This document shows, one piece after another, positions 1 to 58,497 of a DNA stretch of 63,829 nucleotides. Location: positions 2,480,508 through 2,544,336 of the forward strand of contig NW_008705563.1 of the NCBI RefSeq assembly GCF_000186865.1. The letters are read 5' to 3'. The stretch comes from Aureococcus anophagefferens. Lineage: Eukaryota > Sar > Pelagophyceae > Pelagomonadales > Pelagomonadaceae. Numbering within the stretch: the first letter of the stretch is position 1; each line of letters starts with the position of its first letter. The translations under genes were made by a program, and so were the position numbers. Below the pieces are notes generated by a model that saw only the letters and a program-made list of their open reading frames with translations, did not search any database and was not told the DNA's origin.

Positions 1-1679
1 ACGACGCCGAGAGCGCGCTGCCGCGGCGCGCGGGCGGCGCGTCGCCCGCGGGCGCGTCGGGCTTCTTGTCGCGGCGCGGCGGCGGCGGCGGCTTCCAGCC
101 CGGCGGCCGCGCGGGCTTCGCCGGCTCGGGCGGCGTCGGCGTCGGCGGCGACGGCGGCAGGTCGAAGGACGTCGCGGGCGGCGTCGACGGCGGCGGCGGC
201 GGCGTCGCCGCGGCGTCGACGACCGGCGCGCCCGACGGCGGCGGCGGCACGGCGACGGGCGGCGGCGGCGGCGGCGGCGCGGCGACGGGCCCGCCCGTGA
301 CGACGGCCGGCGCCGCGGCGGCCGTCGCCGTCGCGGGCGCGGCTAAACCCGCGCGGAGCCAGCGGAGCCGGAGCTGGATCTTGCCGCCCCCCTTTTGCAT
401 GGGCAGCCAGCCCGTCGTGTCCACGTTCGGCTCGAGGATGTCGACGGGGATCTCCAAACCGGCGATGAGCTTCTTCTTCCCGAAGGCCTCCTTGTGCCGC
501 GCGGCGACGACGACGACGGCCCCCCCCGGCGCCGGGCCCAGGACGAGATTCGGCGGCGTGCGGTAGACGGGGTCGAGGAAGACGCAGTCGCCGCCCCGCT
601 TCGACGCGCGGACGCTGGCCTTGCGGTGCTTGCCGCCGCCCAGGCCCTTGTAGTGGATCTGCGCGTAGATCTTGCACCGTAAATCCCTCGACTCGACGCC
701 CGCGCCGCTGAGGCCCTCGGCGGCGAAGACCGTGAGCTCGAGCTGCTCCGGCGCGCCGCCGCAGCGCGCCCGCCAGTGCTCGCGGTCCTCCGCGGCGCGC
801 GCCGCCGCCTCGTCCAGCGCCCAGGCCGGCGGCTCGCGGAGCAACCGGAAGGGCTGCGCGAGCGGCGCGGTCGCCTGTGTGCAAATCAAATCTTCAACCC
901 GACTTCAATGTGCGCGTATGCGAATGTTTTGACACGAGCACTTCCGCCGTGCTTCGAGAACTCGCTAAGAGCAATCGATTCGTCCAAAAATCAGCCGAAT
1001 CGACTTCGATTTGACCGAGCTAGAGAATTCTCAAGTTTGGCCCCGACGTCCCAGCTCACTGGTTGATTTGCACACAGGCGGTCGCGTGCTCCCGGCACCG
1101 CAGGAGCGCGTCGGCCTCCGCGCCGCCGGCGAAGCGCAGGCGGTGCGACGCCGTCGGCGACGACGAGAAGAAGGAGCCCTTGCCGACCTCGTCGAGGACG
1201 ACGGCGTCGCCGTCCTTGGCGCCGCCGCCCCACTTCGAGACCTGCACGTACGTGCCGACGAGGCTCTTCGACGAGAGCGTCGCGGCCGCCTCCAGCGCCG
1301 CGACGAGGCTCGCGGCGTCCATCTTCGAGCCCGAGTGGCGCGCCGCGGCGTCGTCCGCGCGGTTCTGCGCCGCGGCGACGGGCGCCGCCGCGGCCGGCAG
1401 CGCGCCGCCCGTGCCGACGGCGCGCCGCTCGACGACGCGCGTGTTCTCGTCGGCGACGTTGACCTGGATGATGCCCGACGACGGCGGGCTCTTGAGCCGC
1501 CGCGACACGGCCTTGGCCCCGAAGCGGATCTCGAAGGTGCGGTACTTCTCCGGGTTGTCGGGGTAGCGCAAGGTCAGCGTCGCCTCGAGGGGCCGCGCCG
1601 CCTCGATGGCCGCGTTCGTCTTGGCGTCGTAGCCGTGCCAGGCGCCCTTGCCGTCGCGGTGGAAGTAGGCGTAGGACAT
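1..1679 (-). CDS. WWE-like and C2 domain protein, 3' end beyond the window
   Basis: Exon 1 runs 1679-1086 and exon 2 from 874 past the left edge; the intron 1085-875 is an introner. The ATG at 1679 opens a GC3-biased frame. Residues about 1-75 resemble a WWE domain (AWHGYD, a short helix, FEIRFG, then IIQVN), a fold that usually binds poly-ADP-ribose or ubiquitin-system partners. Joining CAC to GCG ACC at the splice keeps the frame. After the intron a C2-like beta sandwich begins (LELTVFAAEGL through IQLRLRWL), followed by a Pro/Ala-rich tail that is still open at base 1. C2 domains usually bind membranes or calcium; I did not find a clear set of calcium-binding aspartates. The WWE call is moderate and the C2 call good. 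Function is unknown. Confidence 0.7.
875..1077 (-). mobile_element. Introner A1 (family A, 203 bp)
   Basis: The terminal inverted repeat is perfect: CTGTGTGCAAATCAA at the left and its complement at the right. The 8-bp duplication GCGGTCGC lies at 867-874 and 1078-1085. In the sense of the host gene the intron starts with the duplication (GCGACCGC, a GC donor) and ends with the element's CACACAG. Splicing leaves one copy of the target and a phase 0 junction. The intron is 211 bp. Relative to the gene this copy is opposite to A3 and the same way round as A2 and A4. The internal motif TCGTCCAAAAATCAGCCGAA is shared with family B. Confidence 0.95.
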
Positions 1680-1878
1680 GGTTGGAGATGAGCTGCGGCC
1701 CTGGGTGGCGGCGAATTCCCGCGCGCAGCCGCCGCAATGCTCCAACCTGCGCAAGGCTTGTGGCGGATGGCGGCACCGTTTTGCTTGCCGGTTGCTTGCA
1801 GAGGCCTCGACTCGCTTTGCACCACTCGCCTCGCGGCAACCAACAGCGGCGACCGCACCGACCCACGAGCTCGACAAC

Positions 1879-2686
1879 ATGGCAGAAATCGTCAAAGCCG
1901 CCGAGGACCCGAAGAAGAAGCAGGCGCGCCTGCGGCGCTTCCGCTCGGAGCAGAAGAAGAAGGCCGTCGAACTCCAGCGTCCCAGCCGACGGTTTCGGAC
2001 CCGACCGCGGCGACGCGACACCTCCGTAGGCGACGCCGCCGCCGAAGAAGACGATGGCGCACCCGGGCGGGAAGATCACGTCCAACAAGGACGAGGCGAC
2101 GGCCGCGTTCCTCGCGAAGAAGGTCGCGGCGGGCGAGGAGCTGACCGAAGCGCAGCGCGCGGCGCTCGACGAGCTCGAGGGCGCGGCGCCGGAGCCGGCG
2201 CCGAGCCCGTTCCAGGCCTACGTCGCGAACCTGCCCAAGGCGACGACGGCCGAGGGCGGCCTCGCGGACCTGCGGGCGCTCGCGGACGGCGTCGTCGGGT
2301 TCGTGGCGATCACGGACAGAACGACGGGCGAGTGCCGGGGCTTCGGCTTCGCGACGCTCGAGTCGCAGGCGCGCCTCGACGCCTTCGTCGCCGCGCTCCA
2401 CGAGCAGCCGGGCCTCGGGTCCGAGTCGCTCGCGGTCTCCGTCGCGAAGAAGGCGCTGGGGCCCCGCGCGAAGAAGCCCGCGCCGAAGCCCCGGCCGCCG
2501 CGCAAGCCCCGGCCGGCGGCCGACGGCGACGCGCCGGAGAAGAAGGACGGGTCCTTCCGCACGCGCCGCCGGGGCAAGTCGAACCCGAAGCACGCGCCGT
2601 CGCAGTCCAAGAAGGGCGAGCCCAAGGCGCCGCCGCCGAAGAAGGACGACGCGGCCCCGAAGCCGCCGCCCGCGCCGGCGGCGTGA
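1879..2686 (+). CDS. RRM RNA-binding protein
   Basis: The proposed model is exon 1 at 1879-1965, a 64-bp GT-AG intron at 1966-2029, and exon 2 at 2030-2686, giving 247 aa. Residues about 90-168 form an RNA recognition motif with an RNP2-like AYVANL and an RNP1-like GECRGFGFA. The tail from about 170 is Lys/Arg/Pro-rich with an RRRGKSNPKHAP segment, typical of RNA-binding proteins with disordered ends. The N-terminal exon encodes a basic helix. The RRM exon is certain. The first exon and its GTCGAA donor are inferred from codon use and frame; a start at 2054 is the alternative. The gene is divergent from the WWE/C2 gene, with about 200 bp between the starts. A role in mRNA or ribosome binding is only an inference. 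Confidence 0.7.
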
Positions 2687-2955
2687 CGCGCGCGGGGACA
2701 GGCGTTCCGCGACCGCCGCCCCGGGTCGCGCCTTAGTTCACCTCGGACGCCCGGGAGCTGCGAGTGGCGGTTGGGACCCGGTGCCCCTCCGGGGAGCCCG
2801 TGAGTAGCGGCCGCGCCCCCCCACTGCCCCCCCTCGGAAGATTCCAATATCGGACAGAACGCTGTGTACAACAGAGGGTAGGTGGCGCGCGCGGGTCGCG
2901 GGGCGTCCCCGGTCCCGGGGAGGCCCGCCCCGGCGCGGCGGCGGCGGCGGCGAGG

Positions 2956-3390: not shown

Positions 3391-3666
3391 TTTTGAGTTT
3401 TTCGCTTCGGGCGCTTCGGCGCTTCGGGGCCTCGGATTTCCGGGGCGTTTTTTCGGGCGGCGGCGCGGCGGCGGGTGGCGGCGACCCCAAAGAGCGGGTG
3501 GACCGCGGCGGGGGGTCAAGCGGCGGTGTTAGACAATATGGCAGCCGTCGCACGCGTTTGTTCTCAGCGGCTGGAGCTGTCAAAGCCGATCGACATGAGC
3601 GCCGGGGGCGCCGCGGCGCCGGGGGTCGACGACTCGCGCGCGTGAGATCGCGTGGCTCGCAGGCAC

Positions 3667-4791: not shown

Positions 4792-4854
4792 CTATGCCAC
4801 GATGGATCGATCGCGAAAGTGATCGCGACACGCCGGGACACGCTCCCTTAGCCC

Positions 4855-6533
4855 CTAGCACTGCATGTGGACGCAGTCGCCCGTGGACGACTTCGTGCAG
4901 TAGTCGAGGTCCGTCAGCGCGGACTCGTTGAAGAACTTGCCGTTGAAGTAGCCGTGGAACTCGACGCCGAGGCCCGCGACGCCCGCGGTCCACAGGCTGC
5001 CCTCGACGCCCGCGCCCTTGGAGTTGTCCCCCGCGTGCGCGTGGTAGCCCACGTCGTTCCGGCACAGCTTCGGCGCGATGTTGTCGAGATAGCGGGGCTT
5101 CGTGCACCAGACGCCCAGGTGGGAGTCGAGGTAGCGGTCCCAGCCCGTGTTGCAGCCCGTCAAAGCCTGGTGCACGCCCTCGACGTACGTGCCGTAGTAC
5201 GCCGGCGAGTAGAGCCCGTGGCTCGCGCCGCCGTTGGCGATGGCCTTGATCGACACCGCGAAGCCGTCGTCCTCGCTGCACTGGTCGCCGTCGGTGGCGA
5301 GGCCGCACTTGTCCATGTCGAAGGCCGTCCAGGAGCAGTTCGCGCCGTTGTCCGCCTTCGCGAGCGTCTCGTAGGACACGCCCGCCTGGGCGAACTCCTG
5401 GATGAAGGACGGCACGTCCTCGATGTTGTCCATGGGGTTCGCCAATTCGACGACCAGCAGGTCCGGGTAGCCGACGGCCGCGTCCGAGGCCCCGGACCGC
5501 CTCCCGTCGCGCGCCGCCAGCCGTCGCTTCTCCACGGCGATGAGATGCGCCTTCATGGCCATGACCGTCTGGTTCACGAAGAGCGACGACGCGCACATGT
5601 TCGTCGTCATGGCCTCGGCGCTCGGCTGGAAGCGGCCCGCGTGCGGCGCGACGACGCGGAGCGTCGTGCCCGACATGGGCAGGAGCAGGAAGACGTTGTA
5701 GAGCGTGTAGCCTGGGCAGGACAAGAGAGATTCAACGTCGCTTCAACGTGAGTGTTCCGCGCGCGCGCGTTTAAAATAAAGCATCCACGTTTCGAGATTG
5801 TTCCGAGAGATGATCGCTCGTCCAAAAATCAGCCGAAACGAGTGGAAAATGGCCGAGATATGAGCCTTTGAAGTTGGGAATTTCGCTCTCTTGTGCTGCC
5901 CTGCGTGGAGCCGTCCAGGGGGCTCACGTAGTAGGACAGCTTGTACGTCATATCGTCGTAGGCCTCCCAGGCGCTCAAAAAGGGGTCGAGCGACGCCGCG
6001 TAGAACGTCACCGCGGGCACGGCCCACTGCGACCAGCCGCCGGTCGCCGAGAACTCGGCCTCGATCGACGCCGTCGCCGCGGCGGCAAAGTCGCCGGGCG
6101 ACAGCTCGCCGTAGTCCGTGACCTCGGACGTGAAGAAGTGGAGGCCGAAGGGCTCCTGGCCGTTGGTCTGGAGCAGCTCGCGGTGCGCGCACGTCTGCGC
6201 GCCGCCGTGGCGGGTATACGTCAGGTTGTCGAGGTAGTCCAACCCCAAAGCGCGGTAGACGACCTCCGCGTCGACGACGGCGTTCTTCGACGCGAAGGTC
6301 CGCTTGTAGATGCGGCAGCTGTCGCTGAGGAAGGCGCCGGACTTGGCCGACGTGTTCCCCTTGTAGGACCGCTTGCTCTCGAGCGTCGCGCCGGCCCAGG
6401 GCCGCGCCGGCAGCGACGTCGCCACGTAGATCGTAGCGGCGACGGCGACGCCCGCGGCGACGGCGCGCGCGGCGACCGTCCGCCGCGACGGCCGCGCGCC
6501 GTCGTCGGGGATGGCCGCGTACGCCGACGCCAT
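4855..6533 (-). CDS. Type II membrane or secreted protein, unknown function, split by an introner
   Basis: Exon 1 is 6533-5912 and exon 2 is 5711-4855; the intron 5911-5712 is an introner at a phase 1 junction (GAC G|GC TAC). The spliced protein is 492 aa. One hydrophobic helix at about residues 22-42 (AVAAGVAVAATIYVATS) follows a short basic N terminus, suggesting a signal anchor. The remainder is rich in Cys, Trp and Tyr and probably lumenal or extracellular, with WDRYLDSHLGVWCTKPRYL and a cysteine-rich C terminus. Alternating strands around YTLYNVFLLLPMSGTTLRVV faintly recall a VOC/glyoxalase-type fold, but I see no metal-ligand pattern. No family is assigned. Confidence 0.75.
5712..5903 (-). 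mobile_element. Introner B1 (family B, 192 bp)
   Basis: In the host gene's sense the element starts CAGGGCAGCACAAGAG and ends CTTGTCCTGCCCAG. The flanking copies are CGTGTAGC (5704-5711) and CGTGGAGC (5904-5911), 7 of 8 matching. The difference lies between the intronic and exonic copies, as expected when the intronic copy drifts freely. The donor is GC (GCTCCACG). The 200-bp intron is the only phase 1 case of the eight. It is the most diverged family B copy: the GC-rich tract after GTGTTCCGCG reads into TTTAAAATAAAGC. Confidence 0.93.
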
Positions 6534-6610
6534 CGTGCCGAGAGGCAGCCCCAGACGTCGTCTATTTTCGGCAACACACCTTCACCTTCAGCCTGCTGTG
6601 AGGCGGCGCG

Positions 6611-7319: not shown

Positions 7320-7985
7320 AAGGCCGCTTCAACTTGGACTTCAACATCAAACCTTGCACTTCAACAGGGACCTCAACACAGCCGCTTGCCCTTCAAAAGG
7401 GACCTCAACACCGCCGCTCACGCCTCGCCAGGGACCTCTGACGCGCCGCCCACGCCTTAGGGGGCGCGACCCGCCCCATGCCACGTGCCAGAAGCCCTCC
7501 AGAAGCCCTCCAGGAGCCCTCCAGAACCCTTCCGCGGACCCGAAATACCCCAAACCCCTTACGATTTTGCGATTTTGATTCCCCCCACTGCCTTGCCTTG
7601 GTAAACTGCCCTTCAAGTTTCTTTAAGGGCAAACTGCAACGCCACCCCAAACCACGTGCCAGAAGCCCCCCAGAAGCTTCCCAGAAGCCTTCTAGAACCC
7701 TTCCGCGGAGCCAAAAAATACCCCAAACCCCTTACGATTTTGCAATTTTAATTTCCCCCACTGCCTCGTCCTAGTAAACTGCCTTCAAGTTACATTAAGG
7801 GCAAACTGCAAGGCCGCCCCTTCAAGCTTCCTCAAAATAGCATCAAAAAAAAAGAAGTAGCCGCAATAATATCTAAAAGACTTGCTGAAGATTTGCATGT
7901 ATAGATTATATCAACAATTCTTTGCAGGATTGAGAATATTCTACTAGATGATTTTCAGAAAACTATAGCACCGCAGCGCTCTAAG
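7320..7985. repeat. Gene-free island with a 171-bp tandem repeat and an AT-rich tract
   Basis: Two head-to-tail copies of a unit of about 171 bp start at CCACGTGCCAGAAG (7481 and 7652) and run to about 7822. Each holds a run of CCAGAAGCCCTC-type triplets, then TTCCGCGGA, ACCCCAAACCCCTTACG and a closing AAGGGCAAACTGCAA. Within each copy, CTTCAAG followed by TTTAAGGG or TTAAGGG makes small inverted repeats. From about 7830 to 7975 the DNA turns AT-rich, unlike anything else nearby. No coding bias is seen. Confidence 0.85.
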
Positions 7986-8441
7986 GTGGCCCTGCTAAAC
8001 CTGATGCTGGCCGATGTCTGGGTAATTGGGACTCTTGAAGTGGTTTACTCTTTTGTGACATACACCACCGATGGCGGGACCTGCGGCGACACCCAGTACG
8101 GCTGCCCGTCGACGGCGTGCGACGGCGACGACATGCCCTGGTGCACCGCCATCGAAGACGACGCCTGGTCCATACGGGGGGACGACTACTTTTGGCAGAA
8201 CTTCCAGCACTACTGCCACACGTACGACGGAACGGACTGGAAGTTCTACTTTAACGGGGCGCTGGCTCACACCGAGACCGTGGCCCTGGACACCGGCTCC
8301 GACAACCCATTGACGATCGGAGTGCGCTACTCGAGCGGGTACTCAGGCTACTTCAACGGCAAGATAGACGATGTCTACGTCTACTCGAGCGCGCTCAACG
8401 CGGCCTCGATCCAGGTCCTCTACAACGACGGGGCAAGATAG
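7986..8441 (+). CDS. LamG-like (concanavalin A-type) domain fragment
   Basis: The frame encodes the later strands of a LamG/jelly-roll domain: FYFNGALAHTETVALDTGSD, then LTIGVRY, then FNGKIDDVYVYSSALNAASI. This is the C-terminal signature of LamG_3-type domains, which bind glycans or mediate cell-surface contacts. The N-terminal third is missing and there is no convincing start; the first ATG is at 8004. An upstream exon ending before an AG near 7985 is possible. The frame ends at a TAG created by a 74-bp tandem duplication, so this is either a damaged gene or the last exon of one. An AT-rich repeat island lies upstream and low-complexity sequence downstream. Confidence 0.5.
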   Translation: MALLNLMLADVWVIGTLEVVYSFVTYTTDGGTCGDTQYGCPSTACDGDDMPWCTAIEDDAWSIRGDDYFWQNFQHYCHTYDGTDWKFYFNGALAHTETVALDTGSDNPLTIGVRYSSGYSGYFNGKIDDVYVYSSALNAASIQVLYNDGAR

Positions 8442-8505
8442 ACGATGTCTCCGTCTACTCGAGCGCGCTCAACGCGGCCTCGGTCGAGCTCCTCTACGAC
8501 GACGG
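8358..8505 (+). repeat. 74-bp tandem duplication that breaks the LamG frame
   Basis: The segment from GGCAAGATAGACGATGTCT to TCTACAACGACG (8358-8431) is followed directly by a second copy (8432-8505) with about seven substitutions. Because 74 is not a multiple of three, the second copy is out of frame and its AAGATAG is read as a stop at 8439-8441. Read in its own frame the second copy encodes the same KIDDV-VYSSALNAAS motif and ends after GSGRS. Confidence 0.85.
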
Positions 8506-15690: not shown

Positions 15691-17522
15691 ATGCTGCCCT
15701 GCGAGCCGTACGCGCGCGGCTTCTCGGACTCGCCGGTGCGGTCGACGCCGCGCGCGCGCATCAGCTCCGTGTCGTCGTCGCCCGGCGCGTCGCGCGGCCC
15801 GCCGCGGCGGTCGTCGAGCTGGGAGGCGCGCGCGGCCCGCGCGTCCAAGTCGCCGCTCAAGTCGAAGAGCAGCGCGCTCGACCTGCGCCGCGACTTCGAC
15901 CTCGAGCTCAGCGACGACGAGGAGGACCTCGAGATCGCGGCGGGCCACGACTCGCTGCTGAGCGCCGCGAGCCGGTCCCGCGGCACCGCGGGCGCGTCGA
16001 CGACGAGCGGCGCCGGGCGCATCGTGCGCTGGCTCGACGGCGTGGAGCCCGCCGCGCCCGCGGAGTCGCGCGCGGCGCGGCGGCGGCGGCGCTGGGCGTA
16101 CCGCGCGCTGGCGGCGGGCTGCGCCGTGCTGTTGCTCCAGGGCGCCACGGTGGTCCACATGCTCGCGGGCTACCACGGCGACGAGTGCGCCGCCGTGCCG
16201 CGGCGCCCGGCGCCCCGGCGGCCGCGGCTCGACCTCTACGGCAACGCGACCGCGCGGCGCCTCGAGTCGCGGCGGAAGCGCAAGGGCGCGCGCAACGGCA
16301 CGTCGACGACGACGACGCGCGCCAAGAGCTTCCACGTGCGGCGGCCCGTGCGCCAGAGCGATCTGGTGTTCTGGGGGACGCACAACTCGTACCACCGGCG
16401 GCCGCGGCGGTTCCACTTCCCCTACTGGAACGCGCTCATCCCCCAGTGGCAGTACTCGCACCCGCGGCTCGCGCGCCAGCTCGACGCCGGCGCGCGGCAC
16501 CTGGAATTGGACGTCCACGTCGACAGCGCCACGCGGAAGGCGCTCGTGTACCACGTGCAGTCGCTCGACTCGCGGACGCGGTGCTACTGCCTCCGGGACT
16601 GCCTCGGGTCCCTCGTGGACTGGAGCCGGCGGCGAAGCGGCGACCACGGCCTCGTCGTCGTGCTCCTCGAGGTCAAGGGCACCAAGTCCTACGTCGAGGA
16701 CGTCGCGTCCAGGGCAGCAAAAGAGAGCGAAATTCCCAACTTCAAAGGGTCCTATCTCGGCCGTTTTCCACTCGTTTCGGCTGATTTTTGGACGAGCGAT
16801 CATCTCTTGGAACGGTCTCGAAGCGTGGATGCTTTTTCCGGAACGCGCGCGCGCGGAACACTCACGTTGAAGCGACGTTGAATCACCCTTTTGCTGCCCA
16901 GGTCGCGTCGCACTTTCGGGGTCTGGGCGACGACCGCTACCCGGAGTCCAGGGACGCGCTCCGCGTCATCGACGACACGATCTTCGACGCCTTCGCGCCG
17001 ACGCCGCACTCGCTGCTGACGCCCGACGACGTCGCGGGCGGCTACGCGTCGCCGGGCGCGTCCGTGCGCGACCGGGGCTGGCCGGCCGCGGACGCGCTCC
17101 GCGGCGCGTTCGCCTTCGCGCTCCTCGACTCGTCGCAGGAGGCGCAGCTCACGCGCGCCTACGACGCCTCGCGGCGGCCGAGGGCCATGTTCACCATGGG
17201 CTCGGCCGTCGTGGGCCGCGACGCGGCGGCGATCTACAAGTACGACAACCCGAACAACCCGGACCACTTCGCGGCGATCCAGGCCGCCGTGCGCGCGGGC
17301 TTCCTCGTGCGCACGCGGGCGAACACGGTCAAGTACGTGGCGAACTACGCGCGCTTCGCCAAGGCGCGCGAGAGCGGCGCGCAGCTCGTGAGCTTCGAAG
17401 CGGACGCGAAGTCGAACTGGCTCCGCTTCGTCGGGAACCCGGCGAGCCAGTGCGCCTGCGACGCGCTGGCGCTCGCCGGCTCCGACCGCCACTGCGACGA
17501 CTCGAGCCCGCCCTGCACGTAG
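15691..17522 (+). CDS. Membrane-anchored PI-PLC-like phosphodiesterase, split by an introner
   Basis: Exon 1 is 15691-16701 and exon 2 is 16902-17522; the intron 16702-16901 is an introner. The spliced protein is 543 aa. After an acidic, Ser-rich cytoplasmic N terminus, one helix at about 134-155 (ALAAGCAVLLLQGATVV) anchors it as a type II protein. The catalytic region matches the Ca2+-dependent phosphoinositide PLC family (PF16670 type): WGTHNSYHRRP, QWQYSHPRLARQLDAG, RHLELDVHVD, then LVVVLLEVKG. GTHNSYH carries the general acid/base histidine. The intron falls just after this barrel half. The rest (YNPNNPDH-like segment, SFEADAKSNWLRF) continues the TIM barrel. The substrate is probably a phosphoinositide or a related phosphodiester. 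Confidence 0.8.
16710..16901 (+). mobile_element. Introner B2 (family B, 192 bp)
   Basis: The element runs CAGGGCAGCAAAAGAG to CTTTTGCTGCCCAG and is flanked by perfect 8-bp duplications GTCGCGTC at 16702-16709 and 16902-16909. The donor GT is the first dinucleotide of the upstream duplication and the acceptor AG is the element's last two bases. The junction is phase 0 (GAC|GTC) and the intron is exactly 200 bp. It differs from B4 at about five positions by eye, so the two copies are recent. Confidence 0.96.
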
Positions 17523-27576: not shown

Positions 27577-29540
27577 TCAGCCCCGGAGCGCGCGCATCTC
27601 CGCCGCGTGGTCCGCGGCGATGGCCTTGAGCGCGTCCTGGGCCGCGGCCTTGCGCGCCCGCGCCGCGGCGATGTCATGCGCCGCCGCGCCGGCCTCGAGG
27701 AGCGCCGCCTCGTCCGCGGCCGCGTCCGCGACGTCGCTCAGGACGGGCCCCGACTTCTCGAGCTGCCGCGAGAGGCAGCCGACGGCCTGCGCCGCGCGGG
27801 CCCGCGCCGCGGCGTCCGGCGCGGCCATCGCGGCGCTCATGGCCGCGTTGAGCTCGATGGAGAGGAAGAGCACGAGGAAGTTGCGCACGCCGAAGCCGCC
27901 GCAGCCCGCGCGCGGCGCCTTGCCCGCGCCGCAGACGCGCTGGATGAACTCGAGGAAGGGCGCCTCGTCGCGGGCGCCGCCCTGGAGCACGGGCTTCGTG
28001 AAGAGCTGCAGGAGCACGTCGCCGCCCTGGACGTCGACGAGCACGCGGTTCTCCACGATCGCGACGTACTGGTCCTCCGTGAAGACGTCGCCGAGGAGCC
28101 CGTGCAGCGCGCCGTAGCGCGCCACCGCCGCCGCCTCGGCCAGCGCCGGAGCGTGGGGCGCGTCGCCGAGGACATCGGCGATCGCGTCCGCGTCCGCGTC
28201 GAGCGCGACGACGCCCCGGCCGTCGACGAGGCCCCGCGCCTCCAACGTCGCCAGCGCGGCCCGCGCGGCCGCTTCGCCGCAGCCCGCGGCCTTGGCCAGG
28301 GCGCCGGGCCCCGCGATCCGCCCGTAGTAGGCCCGGGGCACGTCGAGGAAGGCGACGCCCTCGCCCGTGGCCTCGCGCGTCGCGTTGGCCCGCTTCACGA
28401 AGCGGACGAGGTCGGGCACGCGGTTCGCGACGTGCTGGACGCCCTGGCCGAGCTCCCGCAGGTAGCCGGCGACGTGGCCCGCGGCGCTCAGGGGGTTGTT
28501 GATGGGGAGGAAGATCTGGCGCCGGGACCGGAGCGCGTCGCCGTCGGCGCCGGCCGCCGACCCGGCGACCGTCGACTCGATGACCTGGGCAGCAAAAGGG
28601 TGATTCAAGTTCGCTTCAACGTGAGTGTTCCGCGCGCGCGCGTTCCGGAAAAAGCATCCACGCTTCGAGACCGTTCCAAGAGATGATCGCTCGTCCAAAA
28701 ATCAGCCGAAACGAGTGGAAAACGGCCGAGAAAGGAGCCTTTGAAGTTGGGAATTTCGCTCTCTTGTCCTGCCCTGTCGATGACGGCCTCGCCCGCGGCG
28801 ACGACGCCGCTCTCGAACTCGACCTGGGGGAGGAGGCCCAGCGTGTCCTCGAGGATGCGCAGCGTGCCCAAGCGGTCCCTGACGTTGGCGACCCAGTGGT
28901 CGCTGAAGCAGGGCACCGCGGCCTCGGGGAACGTCGCTTCGACGGAATCGAGGCCCCGCACGGGCCCCGGCGGCAGGAAGCGCAGCACGGTCCCCGCGTC
29001 CGGCGCGCCGTCGTCGTAGAAGTAGAAGCAGTCCACGCAGGCCTTGTCGCCGCGGTCGAGGAGCCGCGGGTGCCGCGCGCCGTACGCGGCCGCGACCGCC
29101 GCGCGGTCCGACGACGCGAACGCGAGCGCGCAGACGCCGCAGCGGCCGCCGTGCGCCGCGAGCGCGCGCTCGACGTAGGCGCGCGTGAGGAAAAACGGCG
29201 CGCCGGGCCGCTCGTCGCCGTCGGCGAGCGCCGTCACGAGGAACGCCGCGCCGCCGGCGTCGGCCGACCGGAGCAGCAGCGACCGCGTGGAGCCCGCGTC
29301 CGACGCGCCGACGACGCGGAAGTCGAGCGCGAGCAGCTGCGCGACGACGTCGCGGCCGTGCGACGCGTAGGGCGCGGCGCTGGCGTCGTCGACGTCGAAG
29401 CGCGCGGCCACCGCGCGCCAGGCGCCGCCGGAGGCCGACCACTCGTTGAGCGCCTCCTGCAGCCGCAGGTAGTAGGCCAGCGGCCGCAGCGACGGCGCGA
29501 TGGCCTGCACGTGGTGGTAGGCGAGGTCGATTTTTTGCAT
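27577..29540 (-). CDS. HPPD: 4-hydroxyphenylpyruvate dioxygenase, introner-split, with a C-terminal extension
   Basis: Exon 1 is 29540-28785 and exon 2 is 28584-27577, giving 587 aa; the 200-bp intron 28784-28585 is an introner. The enzyme turns 4-hydroxyphenylpyruvate into homogentisate, feeding both tyrosine breakdown and tocopherol/plastoquinone synthesis. The iron ligands are visible: His in FSDHWVANV (about residue 210), His in GQGVQHVANR (about 295), and Glu in FLEFIQR (about 450) after VLLQLFTKPV. GGFGVRNFLVLFLSIE matches the family's closing GGFGxGNF block. Typical enzymes are about 380-440 aa. This one has an Ala-rich insert before the third ligand and an extra helical tail of about 100 residues. 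Neighbouring genes encode the steps before and after. Confidence 0.9.
28585..28776 (-). mobile_element. Introner B3 (family B, 192 bp)
   Basis: In the host sense the element runs CAGGGCAGGACAAGAG to CTTTTGCTGCCCAG, flanked by perfect duplications TCGATGAC (28577-28584 and 28777-28784; GTCATCGA in sense). The donor is GT, the acceptor is the element's terminal CAG, and the junction is phase 0 (GCC|GTC ATC). Orientation relative to the gene is the same as in B1, B2 and B4. Confidence 0.96.
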
Positions 29541-44857: not shown

Positions 44858-44867
44858 TGGCAGGCTC

Positions 44868-46022: not shown

Positions 46023-48155
46023 ATGCTTCGATTGCATCGGCGAAGCATGGCCAAGTTATGCGCTGTCGCGTGCCTTCTGTCCGTGGCGTCGTCGTTCGTG
46101 GTCCCGCGCAGCGCGCGCTCCCAGACCCTCGTCGTGCGCTCCAAGACCTACGACGACGAGACGGACGTGAACGTGCTCATGACGGCGCTCAACGCCGCCG
46201 TCGCCCGCGAGGACTTCCGGGAGGCGTCGAGCTGCAAGAAGCGGCTCGACGCTTTGCGGGGCGGCGCGGCCGCGGCGGCGCCGCAGGCGGGCGACTGGGA
46301 GCAGGAGGGCGCGCCGCGGTGGCTCCAGCGGCGGCTGAGGGACTTGGGCATGCGGTTCCCGACGCCCGTCCAGGCCGCGGCCGTCCGCGAGGTCGCCGGC
46401 AACGGCGGCGACTGCGTCATCGCGGCGCCGACGGGCAGCGGCAAGACCCTGGCCTTCCTCGTGCCCCTGCTCGGCGCCGTGGAGGGCGAGATGATGCGCC
46501 GCGAGCGGCGCCAGCTCGAGGCGAGTTCAAACCTCGGCCTGCTCACGCCCGCGGCGGCGATGGCGGCCTTCTCGCCGGCGCTCTGGACGTCGGCGCAGGT
46601 GTCGCCGCCGAGCCGGCCGCCCCAGTTCGGCCCGCGGCGCGGCGCGCCGCTCGCGCTCGTCCTCGCGCCGAGTCGGGCGCTCGCGGTGCAGCTGGCGACG
46701 GCGACGTTCAGTTTGGTCGGCGGCACGAACCGCAACAAGGGCTCCTACTTCCCCGGCGACAAGGCGTCGCTGTTCGCCTACGAGGGCCCCAAGGGCGCGC
46801 GCGTCGTCGCGCTCGCGTCCGACGGCGACGCGGAGCGCGCGGTCCGCGCCGCGCGGAGCCGGAGGGACGGCGCGTACAAGCGCGCGCTCGCGGACGGCCT
46901 CGTCTTCGACGAGGGCCGCGTGCGGCCCGTCGACGAGACCCAGTTCGACGACCTCGAGGACTGCGACGTGCTCGTCGCCGACGCGCGGACGCTGCTGGAC
47001 GCGCTCGACAGGGCAGCAAAAGAGAGCGAAATTCCCAACTTCAAAGGCTCATATCTCGGCCGTTTTCCACTCGTTTCGGCTGATTTTTGGACGAGCGATC
47101 ATCTCTCGGAACGGTCTCGAAGCGTGGATGCTTTTTCCGGAACGCGAGCGCGCGGAACACTCACGTTGAAGCGACGTTGAATCACCCTTTTGCTGCCCAG
47201 GCGCTCGAGGACGCGCCGGACCTCTTCGACGCGAGCGCGCTGCGCCTCGTCGCCGTCGACGAGGCCGACGCGATCGCCCGCGAGGCGCGCGACGTGCTCG
47301 ACCGGCTCGGCGACCCGCCGGGCGCCGCGCGCCTGCTCGTGGGCGCGTCGCTCGACGGCAGCGAGGCCGCCGCGCTCGCGCGCGGCGGCCCCGTCGCGGC
47401 CGTCGACGCGCGCGGCGCGCGAAACGGCGAAGCTCGCGGCGCCGGCGAGCCTCGACCACCGCTTCATGGGCGTGGAAGACTACCGGCTCCCCCTCGTGCT
47501 CGCGCGGTCCCTCCGGCGGGACCTGGCGGACTGGGAGGCGGCGGGGTCGCCGCCGCCGCGGCCGCGCGCCGTCGTCTTCGCGCGCGACGAGGCCGGCGCG
47601 CGCGCGCTCGCGGACCCACTGCGCACGGCGCTCTGGGGCGCCCACGCCGTGGCGGCGCTGCTGCCGGAGACGGGCGGCGCGCCCCTCGAGGCCGCGGCGT
47701 CCTTCGGCCGCGCGGGCGCCGAGTCGGGCGACGACTTCGCGGCCGTCGCGGCCGTCAACGCGGCGACGCTGCTCGTGACGGTGCCTTCGGCCGCGCGGGG
47801 CCTCGACTTCCCCAACGTGTCCCACGTCTACGCCGTCGGCGCGCCGCCGGGCGACGGCCGCGACGCCGCGGCGACCTACGCGCACGTCGCGGGGAGGTGC
47901 GGCCGCGTGGGCCAGGCGGCCCGCGGCGTCGTCACGACGCTCGGCGGCGACGACGACCGCGCGGCGCTCGAGGGCGTGCTGCGGGACCACTTCGAGGGCG
48001 TCGAGGTCGCGGACGCGGCGCCGCCGCCGTCCCTCGCGGACGAGCCCCTCCCGGACGAGCCCCTCCCGGGCGCGGGCGCGGACGCGGACGCGCAGCGCGC
48101 CTACCTCGAGGACGTCTTCGCCCTGCGCGACGTCGACGACGGCGGCGGCGACTAA
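46023..48155 (+). CDS. Plastid-type DEAD-box helicase with UVR motif, introner-split, one frameshift
   Basis: Exon 1 is 46023-47000 and exon 2 is 47201-48155; the 200-bp intron is an introner. A leader (LCAVACLLSVASSFVVPRS) with an SSFVVP motif suggests plastid import. A UVR-type helix pair (LNAAVAREDFREASSCKKRL) follows. Helicase motifs are Q (FPTPVQAAAV), I (APTGSGKT), II (DEAD, directly after the intron), V-like PSAARGLDFPNV and VI (HVAGRCGRVGQ). DEAD-box proteins remodel RNA or RNPs with ATP. In exon 2 the good frame jumps by one base inside the GC tract 47401-47420, between VAAVDAR and ARETAKLAAPASLDHRF. One extra base there, a sequencing error or a true mutation, would break the protein. 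Confidence 0.82.
47009..47200 (+). mobile_element. Introner B4 (family B, 192 bp)
   Basis: The element runs CAGGGCAGCAAAAGAG to CTTTTGCTGCCCAG between perfect duplications GCGCTCGA (47001-47008 and 47201-47208). The donor is GC, from the first two bases of the duplication; the acceptor is the element's AG. The junction is phase 0 (GAC|GCG CTC) and the intron exactly 200 bp. It is nearly identical to B2. It separates helicase motifs I and II. Confidence 0.96.
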
Positions 48156-49587: not shown

Positions 49588-51425
49588 ATGATAGTCGAGT
49601 CGCCCGACGTCGACGACTGTCCGCCGGTCGGTACGTCGCACCGGCGGCAGAAGTCGATGAACGAGGAGTTGCTCGAGATGGTGAGCGCCGACTCGACGAA
49701 GGACGAGTTCCGGGAGAAGCTGCGCACCGTGAGTCCCCAGGACGTGGACCAGCACCCGAGCCCCGCCGCGTCCCCGAAGACGCCGTTCAAGCCGATGATG
49801 CGGTTGTCGAGCGACGACGTCTTCGCCCTGGACGCGTCGGACCCCGCGGGCCGCCCGCGCGACGTCCGGCCGGGCACGCGCGTGTCGGGCCTCGTGCTCC
49901 GCGGCGTGCCCGCGCGGCCCCGCGCGCCCAAGACCGCGCGCGACCGCGGCTGGGCGCGGCTCTTCGGGTTCGCCCTGGTCCTGGGGGTGGCGTGCCTCGC
50001 CTACGAGCCGCCGCCGCTCGACCGCGCGGCGGCGTGCGTCGCCCTGGCGGCGTCGGCGGCGGCCGTCGAGGGCCTGGCCGTGAGAGCCTGGGCGCGCGGC
50101 GCGCCGCTCGCGAGCGCCGCGCTCGCCGCGTGCCTCGCGCGGCTCGCCGTCGCCGGCGCCTGCGCCCTCCGCGGCGCGTCCGCGCGGTCCGACGAGGCCG
50201 CGGCCTTCGCCTGGGGCGGCCTCGCGTGCGGCCTCGTCGCGTCGGCGGCGGCGCCCGCGGCGCGGCGCCGCCGCGTCCGGAGCAACGAGGCCTTCGCGGG
50301 CGCCGTGCGGGCCATGGCCGCGGGCCGCACTCGTCGCGGCGCCGCGGCGGCCCAGGCCGGCGCGGTCGGCCTCGCGGTCGCGGCCGCGGCGCCGTCGCTG
50401 CCGTCGCTCGGCGCGGCGGTCGCCGCGGCCTGGCTCTGCGGCGTCCTGCGGCTGCTCGCCTTCGCGGCGGCCTGCGGCGCGGAGCTCCGCGCCTACGCGT
50501 CCGCGGACGCGGCCCCGGCGAGCGAGCTCGGCGGCTTCCGCCTGCTGTCGACGTCGCTCGGGAGCCTCGCACAGGCCGCCGTCGCGCTCCCGGCCGCGGC
50601 CGCCGCGCGGTGGCTCCTGGGCCGCCGGCGGCGCGACGCGGCGCCCCTCGCGGCGGCGCTCACGGGCCGCGAGCGCGGCGCCGCGCGGCTCGCGAGCCTC
50701 GCGAACGCGGCGACGGACCTCGGCGTCGCGCACGTCGCCGTCTGCGTGGAAATCAAACACTGAGCTGGGTTATCCCAACCAAACTTCAGAACTCTCCATC
50801 TCGGTCAAATCGAAGTCGATTCGGCTGATTTTTGGACGGATCGATCGCTCTCGTCGAGTTCTCGAAGCACAGCAGAAAGCCTTGCGTCCAAACCGTTCGA
50901 TTACGCGCACATTGAAGTCGGGTTGAAGATTTGATTTCCACACAGGTCGCCGTCCACCACAAGGCGTTCCGCGCGTCGGCCGTCGCCGTCGACGGCGTCC
51001 TCGGCGCGGGCGGCGCCCGGGCCGCGCTCCGCGACGACGACGACGCCGCGCCGGGGTTCCGGGACGCCGCGGGCGCGGCCGCGGACGCGCTCGCGGCCGT
51101 CGCGCTGCTCGTCGCCGCGCGGCCCGTCGGCGTCGCGCTCGCCGTCGCCCTGTGCGCGCGCGTCGCGGGCGCGCTCGTCGCGGCGCCCTACGTCGCCGCC
51201 GTGCAGTCCGCCTACCTCGCGAGCCTCGAGTGCCCCCGGGGCCTCGCGAAGCGCGCGCCGCTCATCTACCAGCGGCTCCGGCGCCTCGCGGACGAGAGCC
51301 GCGCGGACGCGCGCCGCGACCGCCAGGCCGTCGCCAGCCTCCTCCACCGCGGCGGCGACGGCGACGACGCGGACTGCCGAGACGACGACGCGTCGGACCA
51401 CCGCGCCGTTAAATTCTCGGTCTAG
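49588..51425 (+). CDS. Polytopic membrane protein, possibly choline-transporter-like (CTL/SLC44), introner-split
   Basis: Exon 1 ends at 50733 and exon 2 is 50946-51425; the intron 50734-50945 is an introner. From ATG 49588 the protein is 541 aa; ATG 49477 is an alternative. A cytoplasmic N terminus of about 120 residues, with a possible phosphorylation-rich LRTVSPQDVDQHPSPA, precedes roughly nine Ala/Leu-rich hydrophobic segments (LFGFALVLGVACLAY, AAACVALAASAAAVEGLAV, and others). Near the C-terminal end, ATDLGVAH joined to VAVHHKAFRASAVAV resembles the conserved loop of CTL/Pns1 proteins, where a small-residue and HGxxF block precedes the last helices. That assignment is tentative; the membrane topology is clear. 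Confidence 0.6.
50742..50945 (+). mobile_element. Introner A2 (family A, 204 bp)
   Basis: The termini are CTGCGTGGAAATCAAA and TTTGATTTCCACACAG (one transition in the left end), between perfect duplications GTCGCCGT (50734-50741 and 50946-50953). GT donor, phase 0, 212-bp intron. Relative to the gene it lies opposite to A3, the same way round as A1 and A4. The left end carries a small rearrangement (ACACTGAGCTGGGTTATCCC). Confidence 0.94.
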
Positions 51426-51890: not shown

Positions 51891-54144
51891 ATGGCGTCGA
51901 AGCGGGCGCCAACGACGACGCTACCGAAGGCCAAAAAGAAGAAGCCGAAGGAGGTCTTCGCGAACCTCGTGCCGCGCACGGCGCGGGGCGTCGCCGTGGA
52001 CCCGTCGCTGCCCGTGCTCGCCGCGCGCGACGAGATCCTCGCGGCGGTCAAGGCGCACGCGACGGTGCTCCTCGTCGGCGAGACGGGCAGCGGCAAGTCG
52101 ACGCAGGTGCCGCGGTTCCTCGTCGAGGCCGGCCTCGGCTCCGGCGCGCGGGGCGCGCGCGTCTGCGTCACGCAGCCGCGGCGCGTCGCGGTGCTCACGG
52201 TCTGCCAGCGCGTCGCCGACGAGCGGGGCTGCGCCGTCGGCGAGGCCGTGGGCTACGCCATGCGCTTCGAGCGCCGGGTGTCGCCCGCGACGGCCGTCAA
52301 ATTCGCGACGGACGGCCTCGTGGTCCGCCGTGTGGAAATCAAATCTTCAACCCGACTTCAATGTGAGCGTAATCGAACGGTTTGGACCAGACTCTTCGGC
52401 TCTGCTTCGAGAACTCGACGAGAGCGATCGATTCGTCCAAAAATCAGCCGGATCGACTTCGATTTGGCCGAGCGAGAGAACTTCAAAGTTTGGTCGGGAC
52501 GTCCCAAACCAGCGGTTGATTTCCACACAGGTGATCCGCGAGTGCCTCCGGGACCCTCGGCTGTCCGACTACGCGTGCGTCGTCGTCGACGAGGCCCACG
52601 AGCGCGCGCTGCACACGGACGTGCTCTGCGGCCTCGTGCGGCGCGCGGCCCGGGCGCGGCGCGCGTCGCCGAGGCCCCTGCGGGTCCTCCTCATGTCCGC
52701 GACGCTCGACGTCGCCGCCTTCTCCGGCTTCTTCGACGACGCGGCCGTCGTCCGCGTGCCCGGGCGGGCCCATCCCGTCGACGTCTTCTACACGGCGGCG
52801 GCCGTCGACGACTACGCCGAGGCCGCCGTCGCCTGCTGCCTCCAGCTCCACGGCGACCCGGCGTGCGGCGGCGACGTTCTGGTGTTCATGCCCGGCGAGC
52901 AGGAGATCCGCGAGCTCGTCCACATCCTCGACGACGCGCTCCGCGGGGCGGCGCCGTCCCTCGTCGTCCCGCTCTACGGCGCGCTGCCCCGCGAGGACCA
53001 GCTCCGCGCCTTCGCGCCGGCGCCGGGCCGGCGGAAGTTCGTCGTCGCGACGACGATCGCGGAGACGTCCGTGACCATCGGCGGCGTGCGCCACGTCGTC
53101 GACCCGGGCCTCGTCAAGGCCCGCGCGACGTCGACCACGGGCTTCGAGTCCCTCAAGCTGGCGCCGACGTCCAAGGCCCAGGCGCGGCAGCGCGCGGGCC
53201 GCGCGGGCCGCGAGGCGCCCGGCCGCTGCTACCGCCTCTACCCGGAGGCGTCCTGGGCGGCGCTCGCCGACGACGTGACGCCGGAGATCCTGCGCTGCGA
53301 CCTCGCGGCCGTCGTCCTCCAGCTCAAGGCCCTCGGCGTCGACCGGCCGGAGACCTTCGACTACGTGTCGCGCCCGCCCAGGGCCGCGCTGCTCCGCGCG
53401 CTCGAGACGCTCCACGCCGTCGGCGCCCTCGACGACGCCGGAACGTTAACGGCCCGCGGCGCGCGCCTCGCGAAACTGCCGCTCGTGCCCGTCCTCGCCA
53501 AGGCGCTCGACGGCGCCGCGGAGGACGACCGCTACGCGCCGGGCGCGGACGCCGTGCTGACGATCGTCGCGGTCGTCGCGGCGTCGGACCACGGCGTCTT
53601 CGCGACGCCGTCCCGGTCCGAGGAGGCCGACGACGCCATCCGCGCGCGCGACGCCTTCGAGGACGTCTCGGGCGACCTCCTCACGGCGCGGAACGCCTAC
53701 GACGCGTGCGCGCGGGAGTCGACGCCGGCGAACCGGGGCGCCTGGTGCCGCAGGCGCTACGTGTCCGCGACGGCCATGCACACGGCCTTCCGCGTCCGCG
53801 CCCAGCTCGCGGGGCTCTTCCCCGACGGCGCGTTCTCCCGCGACGCCGCCGCGGACGCGGACGCGCGGCGCGCGGCGACGCTCGACTGCCTCGCGGGCGC
53901 GCTCTGCAGCTGCCACGCGGCGCTCCGGGACCCGCACCGCCGGTGCTTCCGCGCCGCGCGCCAGAAGGTCGACGTCTTCGTCCACCCGACGTCCGTCCTC
54001 CACGGCCGGAACCCGCCGCCGGACGCGCTCGTCTACACGTCCTCCGTCCTCACGACGAAGCTCTTCGTCCGCGGCGTCCTCGCCGTCGACGCCGCCGCGC
54101 TCCCGAGGCTCGCGCCCCACCTGTTCTCGACGAAGGGGACGTAA
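51891..54144 (+). CDS. DEAH-box RNA helicase, introner-split
   Basis: Exon 1 is 51891-52319 and exon 2 is 52531-54144, giving 680 aa; the intron 52320-52530 is an introner. Motifs in order: I GETGSGKST (about residue 62), Ia VTQPRRVAV, II VVVDEAHERALH, III LLMSATLD, IV-like VLVFMPGEQEI, V ATTIAETSVTIGG and VI QRAGRAGREAPG. The helicase-associated HA2 and OB-fold domains follow and the protein ends near LFSTKGT. This is the Prp43/DHX15-DHX33 class, which drives spliceosome disassembly or ribosome assembly; the length is short for Prp22 or Prp2. It is notable that a putative RNA-splicing-class helicase is itself carrying an introner. Confidence 0.93.
52328..52530 (+). mobile_element. Introner A3 (family A, 203 bp)
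   Basis: The termini are CCGTGTGGAAATCAAAT and TTGATTTCCACACAG (one T to C change at the left tip). The flanking copies are GTGGTCCG (52320-52327) and GTGATCCG (52531-52538), 7 of 8; the exonic copy encodes V-I-R in the conserved block before DEAH. GT donor, phase 0, 211-bp intron. It is the only family A copy in this orientation relative to its gene. Confidence 0.95.
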
Positions 54145-54231
54145 TTCGGAGGTTCAACATGTGGCCAGTTCACCATTCGGCAAGATGCACGTGAGCTTCA
54201 AGTATTTCGTGAGCCTCTAGGCGCCGCAAGC

Positions 54232-54714: not shown

Positions 54715-54838
54715 GGCAATGCAAAGCGGTGCAGGTAGGCGAGCAGCGCGACCCGCCGAAGGGAACAGATCGAGTCGCGCGCGACAGGGGCTGCATGGTA
54801 GCAGCAAAACTTCACGGTCACCTTCTCCCATCGAGGCG

Positions 54839-55969: not shown

Positions 55970-55975
55970 AGCACC

Positions 55976-56695
55976 TTACGACGGCGCCGCCTTGCCGCGC
56001 CAGTAGTCCGCGCCGTAGTCGAAGCACAGCTCCTCGCCGACCGCGACGTCGCGCGCGGCGAAGAAGCGGACGCCGCGGTCGCACCGCGTCCCCGGCAGGC
56101 GCAGCGGGCCGCCGAGCCGCTCGCGGCGCACGTTGGCGGCCCCGGCCGGCGCGTGGTTCAAGTAGCGCGCGAGGTTGGATCGGTCCGGGTCCGCGCCGTC
56201 GACGAACGCGTCGTCGCCGAGCTCGAAGACGTACGCGCCGCCGACGGCCGCGCGCGGGTCCTCCGGGTCGCCGTAGCGCGCGTAGAGCTCGGCCTCGTCG
56301 ATGACCTCGCCGACGTAGTCCAACAGGTAGGTGTCCTTTTCGATCGCCGCCGCGGCGAAGAGACCGTCGCCTTTGGCGCCCGCGGCGCGGACGGCGAGCG
56401 CCGCCTCGCCGAGCGGCGGCGTCTCCGGCGGCGCCGCGAGCGCCCACGCGATCGAGTCGCGGCCGAGCGCGGCGGCGGCCGCCGCGGCCGCCGCCGCCGC
56501 CTCCGGGTGCTGCGGCGCGAGCAGCAGGGACGCCGCGCCGACGAGCCCGCCGCCGGCCGCCAGGCCGGCGCTCCTCATCCGCCGCCGCTCGCGCACGCGC
56601 GCGAGCTCCTCGGCGAGCGGCGGCGCGAGCGCTGCGACCATCGCGTAGCACGTGATGCAGAGCGCTGCCATCATCGCACGCTGGAGGTCCACCAT
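55976..56695 (-). CDS. SET-domain protein methyltransferase
   Basis: A 239-aa protein. The SET core spans about residues 95-235: AKGDGLFAAAAIEKDTYLLD, YVGEVIDEAELYARYGD, DRSNLARYLNHAPAGAANV (the NHS/NH-type SAM block, here NHA) and AARDVAVGEELCFDYGADYW (the ELxFDY block). There are no pre-SET or post-SET cysteines. The N terminus (MMAALCITCYAMVAALAP) is hydrophobic and Cys-bearing and could be a signal or plastid leader, which would favour a non-histone target. It uses SAM to methylate lysines. The start at 56695 is the first of several closely spaced Met codons. Confidence 0.85.
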   Translation of the reverse strand: MVDLQRAMMAALCITCYAMVAALAPPLAEELARVRERRRMRSAGLAAGGGLVGAASLLLAPQHPEAAAAAAAAAAALGRDSIAWALAAPPETPPLGEAALAVRAAGAKGDGLFAAAAIEKDTYLLDYVGEVIDEAELYARYGDPEDPRAAVGGAYVFELGDDAFVDGADPDRSNLARYLNHAPAGAANVRRERLGGPLRLPGTRCDRGVRFFAARDVAVGEELCFDYGADYWRGKAAPS

Positions 56696-56841
56696 GACGC
56701 CTAGCACGGACTTGCTCCCGGCGTGCACCGACGTCGGGTTCGAAGGGCTTCGTTTTGGAGGCACATCAGGCAGTCGGGGCAGCAGAGCTTGTTGAAGTCG
56801 TGAGACGATGGTGAGGCAAACATGCACGACATTTTGATGTT

Positions 56842-58497
56842 TTACAGGACGCCGTCCCGCGCGACCTGCTCGCGCAGCTCGGGCGCGTCGGCGAGCGTCG
56901 CGAGGACCGTCGCCGCGAAGGCCGCCGCCGCCGTCGCGTTGTCGAAGAGGTCCAGGACCGCGGCCTCTAGCTGGTCCGTGGGCCAGAGCACGGTGCCCCG
57001 CATCGTGACGCGCCGCACGGACTCGTCGAAGTGAAAGGCCGCGCAGATCTCGTCGACGGCGCGCCGCTTCGGATCCGCGATGCGGTCGCGGCCGCAGGCC
57101 CGGGACCGCAGCACGGTCTCGAGGAGCGCGTGCCGCCGCGCCGCGAGCGTGAGCTTGGGCGATCCTTCCGCGTCGCCGGCCGCCGCGTACTCGAGGAACA
57201 GGCGCACGCGGGGCGCCCGGTCCGCCGCGTCCCCGCCGGAGACGTGGGCCGCGAAGTCGCCGGGCCGCCAGGCCAGCGACTTGCGCGCCACGTCGCAGTT
57301 CGCGTCGAAGAAATCCGGCGCGCACGTGTGCGCCTGCGCGCGACTCGAATCTTCAACCCGACTTCAATGTGCGACGGTTTTGACGCGAGTTCTTCGGCTG
57401 CGCTTCGCAAACTCGAAGAGAACGATCGATTCGTCCAAACATCAGCCAACACGACGTCGATGTGACCGAGCGAGAGCATTTCAAAGTTTGGTCGGGACGT
57501 CCCGAATCAACCGCACACGGGCGCGCGCGTTCCAGAACGACTGCAGCGCCCGATACGGCAGCACGACGACGGCGCCGCCGGCGCCGGCGAGCCGCCCGTG
57601 GACGGACGCGAGGGCCGCCTGGTCCCAGTGCGCGCAGGCCCCGAGCCAGCAGGCGTCGCCGCCGCCGCGGAACGGCTCGAGCCACGCGGCCTCGAGGATG
57701 AGCGCGACGTCGGCCGAGCCCGCGCGCCGCGCCGCGAGGACGCCCGTGTTGAACCCATCCAAGAGCGGGTCCGCGCCCGCGGCGACGTAGCCCGGCGGGA
57801 CGTCCGCGAGCGCCGCCGCGAGGTCGTACGCGGCGTCCGTCGCGACGACGTCGTCGTCGACGACGACGACGAACTCGTAGCAGTCCGCGACGTCCAACAG
57901 CCGCCGGAGCAGCCAGAGCTTGAGCCAGTGGCCGCTCCGCGACGCGAGGTAGTAGGCCAGGGACGCCGTCAGCTCGCCGTAGGGCTCCTCGACGACCGCG
58001 CCGGCGAGACCCGCGGCGTCCGCGGGAAAGAACCCGTAGCCGCGTTGTACCGCGTAGGCGCGCCAGCTCGCCCAGCCGATCGCCGCGACGTCCGGCCGGT
58101 CGGAGATGGACGCGACGAGCACTCCGGACCCGGCCGCGCCGCCCGGCGGCGCCGCGCCGCACGGGTCCGCGGCGAGCGCGAGCGGAGGCCACCGCGCGGC
58201 GAGCGCGCGGTGCTCCGCGACGGCCCTCGCGCACGCCGCGGCGCCCGGCGCGCACGCGCCACGCGCCGCGTGCCCCGTCGCCGCGAGCATGGCCGCGCAG
58301 CGCGCGTCGTCGCTCGGGCAGGCGACGACGGACGCCGCGCCGACCTGTCGCGCGAAGGCGTGCACGGCCTCCTGCACGGCGTGCGGGCCGCCGCAGTGGA
58401 CGACGACGGGCTCGCCGTCGACGACGAAGGGCAGCGAGCACGGCGCGAGGCCCGCGACGCGCGCAACCACCAAGAGGGCGACGACAAAGCGCCACAT
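56842..58497 (-). CDS. Secretory glycosyltransferase (GT34-like), introner-split
   Basis: Exon 1 is 58497-57529 and exon 2 is 57333-56842, giving 486 aa; the 195-bp intron is a decayed introner. A signal peptide (MWRFVVALLVVARVAGLAP) leads. The catalytic part has VLVASISDRPDVAAIGWASW, AYAVQRGYGFF, HWLKLWLLRRLLDVADCYEF, VVVVDDDVVATD (acidic metal-binding motif), GFNTGVLAARR and AHWDQAALASV. This is the block order of the GMA12/MNN10 (GT34) and related nucleotide-sugar transferases. The C-terminal 160 residues after the intron are unassigned and helical. It probably acts in the Golgi; the donor is unknown. An upstream in-frame ATG at 58515 is an alternative start. Confidence 0.78.
57334..57520 (-). 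mobile_element. Introner A4 (family A, 187 bp, decayed)
   Basis: The body matches family A throughout (AATCTTCAACCCGACTTCAA, TCGATTCGTCCAAACATCAG, TTTGGTCGGGACGTCCC), but both ends have drifted: CTGCGCGCGACTCGAATC at the left and AATCAACCGCACACGG at the right, with about 16 bp lost near the right end. The flanking copies are GTGTGCGC (57326-57333) and GCGCGCGC (57521-57528), 6 of 8. In sense the intron starts GC and ends CGCAG. The junction AAC|GCG CAC is phase 0. It is the oldest-looking copy. Confidence 0.85.

Follow-up and report, generated by a model that had tools for sequence, protein, structure and literature searches.

The stretch of Aureococcus anophagefferens DNA considered here (the window, 63.8 kb long and 72% GC, on contig NW_008705563.1 of a 49-Mb assembly of 86 contigs) contains eight copies of a short element with terminal inverted repeats, each next to a duplication of the gene sequence at its insertion site. 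Four copies belong to a type that we call A (192 bp each) and four to a type that we call B (187–204 bp). They lie, among others, in genes for a Ca2+-dependent phosphatidylinositol-specific phospholipase C (PI-PLC), a DEAD-box-like helicase and a DEAH-box RNA helicase (Table 1). We argue below that these eight segments are very probably introners, that is, non-autonomous DNA transposons that inserted into exons and can be removed by splicing.

When the window is scanned with a profile of each type, at E values up to 1, exactly these eight copies are found and no further ones; it is important to note that both profiles were built from alignments that already include the window copies. Together with the boundary analysis, the scans confirm the eight left ends proposed in an earlier, sequence-based note on this DNA (the original prediction). 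Its count of five perfect target duplications, two at 7/8 and one at 6/8 is also correct, the boundary of B4 having been set by hand since the automatic boundary finder failed on this old copy, the most decayed of the eight.

Table 1. Predicted introner introns of the window, the elements that they contain and the flanking target duplications (window positions).
Copy	Gene	Predicted intron	Strand	Element	Splice sites, phase	Duplication	Match
B1		875..1085 (runs 1085 to 875)	-	875-1077 (203 bp)	GC-AG, phase 0	GCGGTCGC, 867-874 and 1078-1085	8/8
A1		5712..5911	-	5712-5903 (192 bp)	GC-AG, phase 1	CGTGTAGC / CGTGGAGC	7/8
A2	Ca2+-dependent PI-PLC	16702..16901	+	16710-16901 (192 bp)	GT-AG, phase 0	GTCGCGTC	8/8
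A3		28585..28784	-	28585-28776 (192 bp)	GT-AG, phase 0	TCGATGAC (as read on +)	8/8
A4	DEAD-box-like helicase	47001..47200	+	47009-47200 (192 bp)	GC-AG, phase 0	GCGCTCGA	8/8
B2		50734..50945	+	50742-50945 (204 bp)	GT-AG, phase 0	GTCGCCGT	8/8
B3	DEAH-box RNA helicase	52320..52530	+	52328-52530 (203 bp)	GT-AG, phase 0	GTGGTCCG / GTGATCCG	7/8
B4		57334..57528	-	57334-57520 (187 bp)	GC-AG, phase 0	GTGTGCGC / GCGCGCGC	6/8

On the gene strand, the predicted intron is built in the same way in all eight cases: it consists of one duplication and the element, the upstream duplication supplying the GT or GC with which it starts, and the element supplying the terminal CAG that is the predicted 3' splice site. 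Removing one duplication and the element leaves an open frame that has the coding pattern of the genome, so that the predicted splicing would restore the frame at every site, as had been proposed, and the reconstructions of the empty sites hold up for all eight insertions. An automatic test scored seven of the copies as genic, B4 being the one that was not. Read through in frame, seven of the introns bring in one to three stop codons, and B3, which has none, shifts the frame.

The junctions of B3, A2 and A1 were compared with homologous proteins, and each is spanned without a gap by at least one of them. The B3 helicase is ungapped at the junction against DHX16 (PDB 5z56) and against two environmental proteins (P0001 and P0002), and PF00270 extends across it; an A. 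anophagefferens protein, P0019, is 92% identical over 42% of the query, with one badly aligned stretch. PF16670 extends across the A2 junction of the PI-PLC, at which six homologues are ungapped, environmental proteins and, from A. anophagefferens, P0126 (69% identity over 63% of the protein, near-identical beside the junction); a sequence search gave no PDB relative of this PI-PLC. At the A1 junction, the environmental proteins P0141, P0143 and P0144 are ungapped. P0141 has GST, which is what the upstream A1 duplication encodes, and P0144 has GYT, as encoded by the downstream duplication; each of them may correspond to an empty allele or to a spliced RNA. Pfam matches were obtained for two of the seven joined (predicted-spliced) proteins that were submitted, and no Pfam family was found in those of B1, A1, A3, B2 and B4. 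In the A4 helicase, the Pfam DEAD match covers residues 2–106 and stops short of the junction at residue 200, and the evidence for the A4 frame is the coding pattern, together with a VDEAD motif past the junction.

The same organization is found in copies from elsewhere in the genome. We analysed 132 copies: the eight of the window, loci obtained by similarity search, which favour relatives of B1, A2 and B3, and loci on contig C1 that surround an exact match to one of the element ends. The latter (40 stretches, 36 copies analysed) were chosen independently of the interior of the element, provided that one end was intact. The 8-bp duplications which the original prediction proposed to look for in the genome are present: 97 of the 132 copies have a perfect one and 120 have at least 7/8, compared to means of 1.1 and 3.0 (maxima 6 and 10) when the flanks are re-paired between copies in permutations. 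The genic status was decided by a codon score, with a coding model for which the 61 training open reading frames came from the window and from the very loci under test, which makes the test mildly circular. By this score 119 copies (62 A and 57 B) have one frame on both sides; the proportion in the C1 sample is 33/36.

In the genic copies, GY (GT or GC) is present at the sense end of the duplication in 117 of 119 cases (62/62 A and 55/57 B), against 41 of 119 at the antisense end (26/62 A and 15/57 B), and the acceptor AG is present at the used end in 118. GY begins 20% of the positions of coding sequence, and 22% of those are GT. Compared to this background, the 65 GT among the 117 donors are in large excess (P = 2e-15): GT is preferred as a donor, and GC, with the remaining 52, is nonetheless common. 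The phases of the genic copies (64:24:31) also depart from the proportions expected from GY positions (0.398:0.253:0.349, P = 0.008); the preference for GT would account for part of this departure.

The original prediction described A and B as at least two families. That there are two sets of copies is correct, but they are not separate families: the profile of each matches the window copies of the other with E values between 2e-6 and 2e-12, and the two consensus sequences have a common core. Judging from these similarities, A and B are subfamilies of one lineage. The median identity to the consensus is 96.9% for A (n = 67) and 91.1% for B (n = 65), in samples that both favour relatives of the query copies.

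The two subfamilies differ in the number of ends that can act as an acceptor, so that the genome offers a clean comparison. In B, both ends start with CTG in all 15 pairs that were read out, so that each of the two strands finishes with a CAG, and the genic copies lie in both orientations (32:25). The acceptor AG is kept in 56/57 cases at the used end of B and in 42/57 at the unused end (P = 0.0002), as expected if selection keeps only the end that is used. In A, one end has CAG and the other CTG or, in 5 of 62 copies, CCG; the CAG end is downstream with respect to the gene in 62 of 62 genic copies, and AG is accordingly found at 62/62 used ends and 0/62 unused ends. A genome-wide census of end pairs, which covers only copies with both 8-base ends exact, gives 609 intact pairs for B (with a pattern that allows CAG or CTG starts) and, for A, 1,130 pairs with one acceptor (575 + 555), none without acceptor and 14 with two, compared to 4 with the reversed pattern used as a control. 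Seven of these 14 are clear and the other seven are ambiguous, because CAGGGCAG or a near-copy of it starts five bases further in.

The seven ambiguous A ends read CTGGGCAGGGCAG, or nearly so, and six of them are in spans of 197 bp. Two arrangements would give such a reading: 5 bp duplicated within the arm, or a normal end preceded by a CTGGG flank. On contig C1 (L073, 2651500–2652800), a segment of about 1 kb holds two oppositely oriented B copies and a portion of another; the B ends that are 744 bp apart at this locus were considered as those of one long element, which was rejected in favour of two separate copies and part of a third.

Regarding the other signals that an intron may need, the branch-point motif YTNAY is present in 48/56 active and 42/56 inactive B arms and in 0/61 active A arms, in a count that leaves out the 2 of 119 genic copies whose duplications are under 5/8. 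CAC near position -16 is found in 54/61 active A arms, in 4/48 inactive arms of the main form of A and in 13/13 inactive arms of its mirror form, from which we draw no firm conclusion.

Some A copies have their interior turned round with respect to their ends, and these we call the mirror form. It accounts for 13 of the 62 genic copies (the main form for 49), for 8 of the 17 genic A copies of the C1 sample and, by count, for 33 of the 100 copies listed from the end-pair census. B copies also exist with either interior, that of B2 being reversed relative to that of B3. In genes, the mirror form is oriented according to its CAG end and regardless of its interior, which suggests that the bias in orientation is due to spliceability, and we infer that selection is behind the orientation rule. 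The comparison of A with B and the existence of a mirror form thus help to separate an insertion preference from later selection.

In a weak tree of A interiors (67 copies, about 140 columns), the state of the ends changes six times, compared to a mean of 13.6 and a minimum of 10 after shuffling. This is a tentative hint that the mirror form arose more than once. In our proposal, the inverted repeats would have recombined with each other and so turned the interior round, which would produce the mirror form in a single step. A founder effect is another possible reason for the absence of A copies with no acceptor, provided that all source copies were one-ended; the mirror form would then need a founder of its own. 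An explanation that brings these elements together, and that we find attractive without quite being ready to favour it, is the following. A single base of the terminal repeat (CA to CT, position 2) would turn a transposon end into an acceptor and set the direction of the introner, A keeping one such end and B two; the flip of the A interior, or an exchange of arms, perhaps repeated, would amount to a natural swap experiment; and the bias would come from selection for splicing after insertion instead of from the insertion process.

Several observations weigh against the conclusion that the eight segments are introners. Among the 132 copies, 13 are not judged genic, window copy B4 being one of them, and 7 have duplications of 5/8 or worse, including B4 by way of its wrong automatic boundary. 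Two genic B copies have donors other than GY: TA in L033, which is badly bounded and also lacks AG, and GA in L053. An autonomous partner was not found in searches for hAT, MULE and KDZ transposases, P-element and other superfamilies not having been searched. Last, a public gene model of A. anophagefferens, P0142 (JL720_13707; 86% identity over 97% of the A1 protein), departs from the prediction at A1: instead of the GC donor it uses a GT that lies 72 nt further into the intron, the acceptor being unchanged.

This gene model, and the stops or frame shift that all eight introns would cause if they were retained, are what one would expect of ordinary insertions, either kept in the transcript, where they would disrupt the gene, or spliced at other sites, the splicing being deduced here from genomic sequence. 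We nevertheless consider this very unlikely, since the coding pattern continues in one frame on both sides of 119 of the 132 copies, GY and AG are strictly observed on the gene strand, B has retained AG more often at the used acceptor than at the other, and homologous proteins cross the junctions without gaps. It is extremely unlikely, in our opinion, that the elements landed in introns that existed before them: element and intron would coincide under either view, but the predicted introns contain nothing beyond the element and one duplication, their length being 200 nt for 56 of the 62 genic A copies and 211 nt for 40 of the 57 genic B copies. Nor is it easy to believe that the copies spread as introns through RNA, by reverse splicing and reverse transcription, and not as DNA transposons. 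The high proportion of genic copies, as in the C1 sample, would fit such a mechanism, which we regard as scarcely credible given the 8-bp target duplications and the inverted repeats at the ends of the elements, and given a 5' splice site that is local gene sequence and varies between copies. The interiors of B, and of A when the mirror form is included, are moreover found both ways round, which is not expected from the copying of spliced RNA alone.

Insertion of a DNA transposon into an exon is therefore the explanation that we retain, and the following mechanism may be proposed. A non-autonomous element with terminal inverted repeats would insert into an exon by cut-and-paste transposition, using a transposase supplied from elsewhere, and duplicate 8 bp of the target. 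The CAG at the end of the element would act as the 3' splice site, and the duplicated gene sequence, by its first two bases, GT or GC, as the 5' splice site. Removal of the element and of one duplication by the spliceosome would return the original message. A genic copy would be tolerated only with a CAG end downstream, which allows B to be either way round and A only one way, and insertions that cannot be spliced would be lost by selection.

As to the origin of the transposase, we take the 8-bp duplication and the CAGGG start of the non-acceptor end of A to be hAT-like criteria. Miniature inverted-repeat transposable elements of the hAT superfamily have an 8-bp target duplication, as these introners do. 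A search of the genome for the hAT domain gave four hits, but the exact end motifs of A and B are absent from these four loci, and a scan for an 8-bp duplication with an inverted repeat found no A- or B-like ends around them. In wider stretches of the C1 and C6 loci, the sole exact end motif is an isolated CAGGGCAG at C6; such searches might overlook a transposase whose gene is interrupted by introns. The MULE transposase domain (PF10551) has no match in the genome at E 0.01, compared to 4 positive control genomes out of 14. KDZ gave no match either, but the control genomes also gave none, which makes this search uninformative. A scan of viral contigs for an 18-base core of the introners gave two hits, in which the similarity goes no further than the core with up to 32 flanking bases.

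Some of the hAT-like loci have features of their own. The hit on contig C8 lies near an element of 1.15 kb (L075, 617–1772), a hAT-like remnant that has a perfect 8-bp duplication and an inverted repeat (CAAGCA...) unlike the ends of the introners. A hAT-like gene is present in two copies, L070 and L071 (contigs C1 and C13), which share 99% identity across 3,989 bp or more.

The introner phenomenon and its occurrence in this species are already known. Huff, Zilberman and Roy reportedly described, in 2016, the introners of A. anophagefferens as non-autonomous DNA transposons in which the duplicated target gives one splice site and the element carries the other. The likeness pointed out in the original prediction is borne out by the anatomy of the present copies, including the fixed 8-bp duplication, the inverted ends and the donor taken from the duplicated target.

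Passages of later papers give further details. One in PMC9481584 puts the introner length near 210 bp, citing Huff 2016, one in PMC7789003 mentions the constant-length direct and inverted repeats of Huff's A. anophagefferens introners, and one in PMC10228655 states that Huff's introners are inserted in both orientations; a preference of these introners for linkers is also mentioned among the citing passages of these papers and of PMC9860276. PMC7789003 ascribes canonical splicing motifs to the A. anophagefferens elements and, in another place, a raised share of non-canonical introns to the species; in the copies described here, GC is the donor in 52 of 117. The survey of introners in PMC9860276 (Gozashti et al. 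2022) presents a class in which the 5' splice site comes from the duplication and the 3' site is carried, with an example from Symbiodinium. The division of the splice sites is the same here, but the duplication of that example is 4 bp long instead of 8 bp. The copies are unlike family 4 of Aureococcus sp., for which the same source reports that both splice sites are carried and that 12 bp are added to the transcript.

Three points may be new: the contrast between a subfamily with one acceptor end and another with two, the existence of a mirror form, and the genome-wide count of end states. A literature search by title and abstract returned nothing on these three subjects, which proves little. 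The origin of introns is an old question, for which introners are of interest as a live source of new introns.

The public gene models also bear on the annotation of this species. At the site of the A1 introner, P0142 includes a translation of the beginning of this element, so that the A1 insertion is common to a named strain of A. anophagefferens, which ties the window to the species, and the 72 nt between the predicted donor and the inner one are thus read as protein. We take the inner donor as the choice of a gene predictor that rejects GC donors, but A1 may also be spliced in another way. A second A. anophagefferens protein, P0145, is 100% identical to the A1 protein over 47% of it. At A2, which has a GT donor, P0126 shows the predicted junction. 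From a practical point of view, the sole GC-donor introner that could be compared with a public model has 72 nt of intron annotated as coding, and GC-donor introners may be misread elsewhere in the annotation of the species.

Besides the introners, no Rfam family and no tRNA was found in the window, which has a run of 50 N at 41354–41403. Three tandem duplications, of about two copies each, are located at 7474–7820 (173-bp unit), 8358–8505 (74 bp) and 10646–10871 (117 bp). Last, the segment 24522–26122 contains two divergent genes for the same four-EF-hand protein, presumably calmodulin-like, inside an inverted repeat of 454 bp, with 99% complementarity between the arms.

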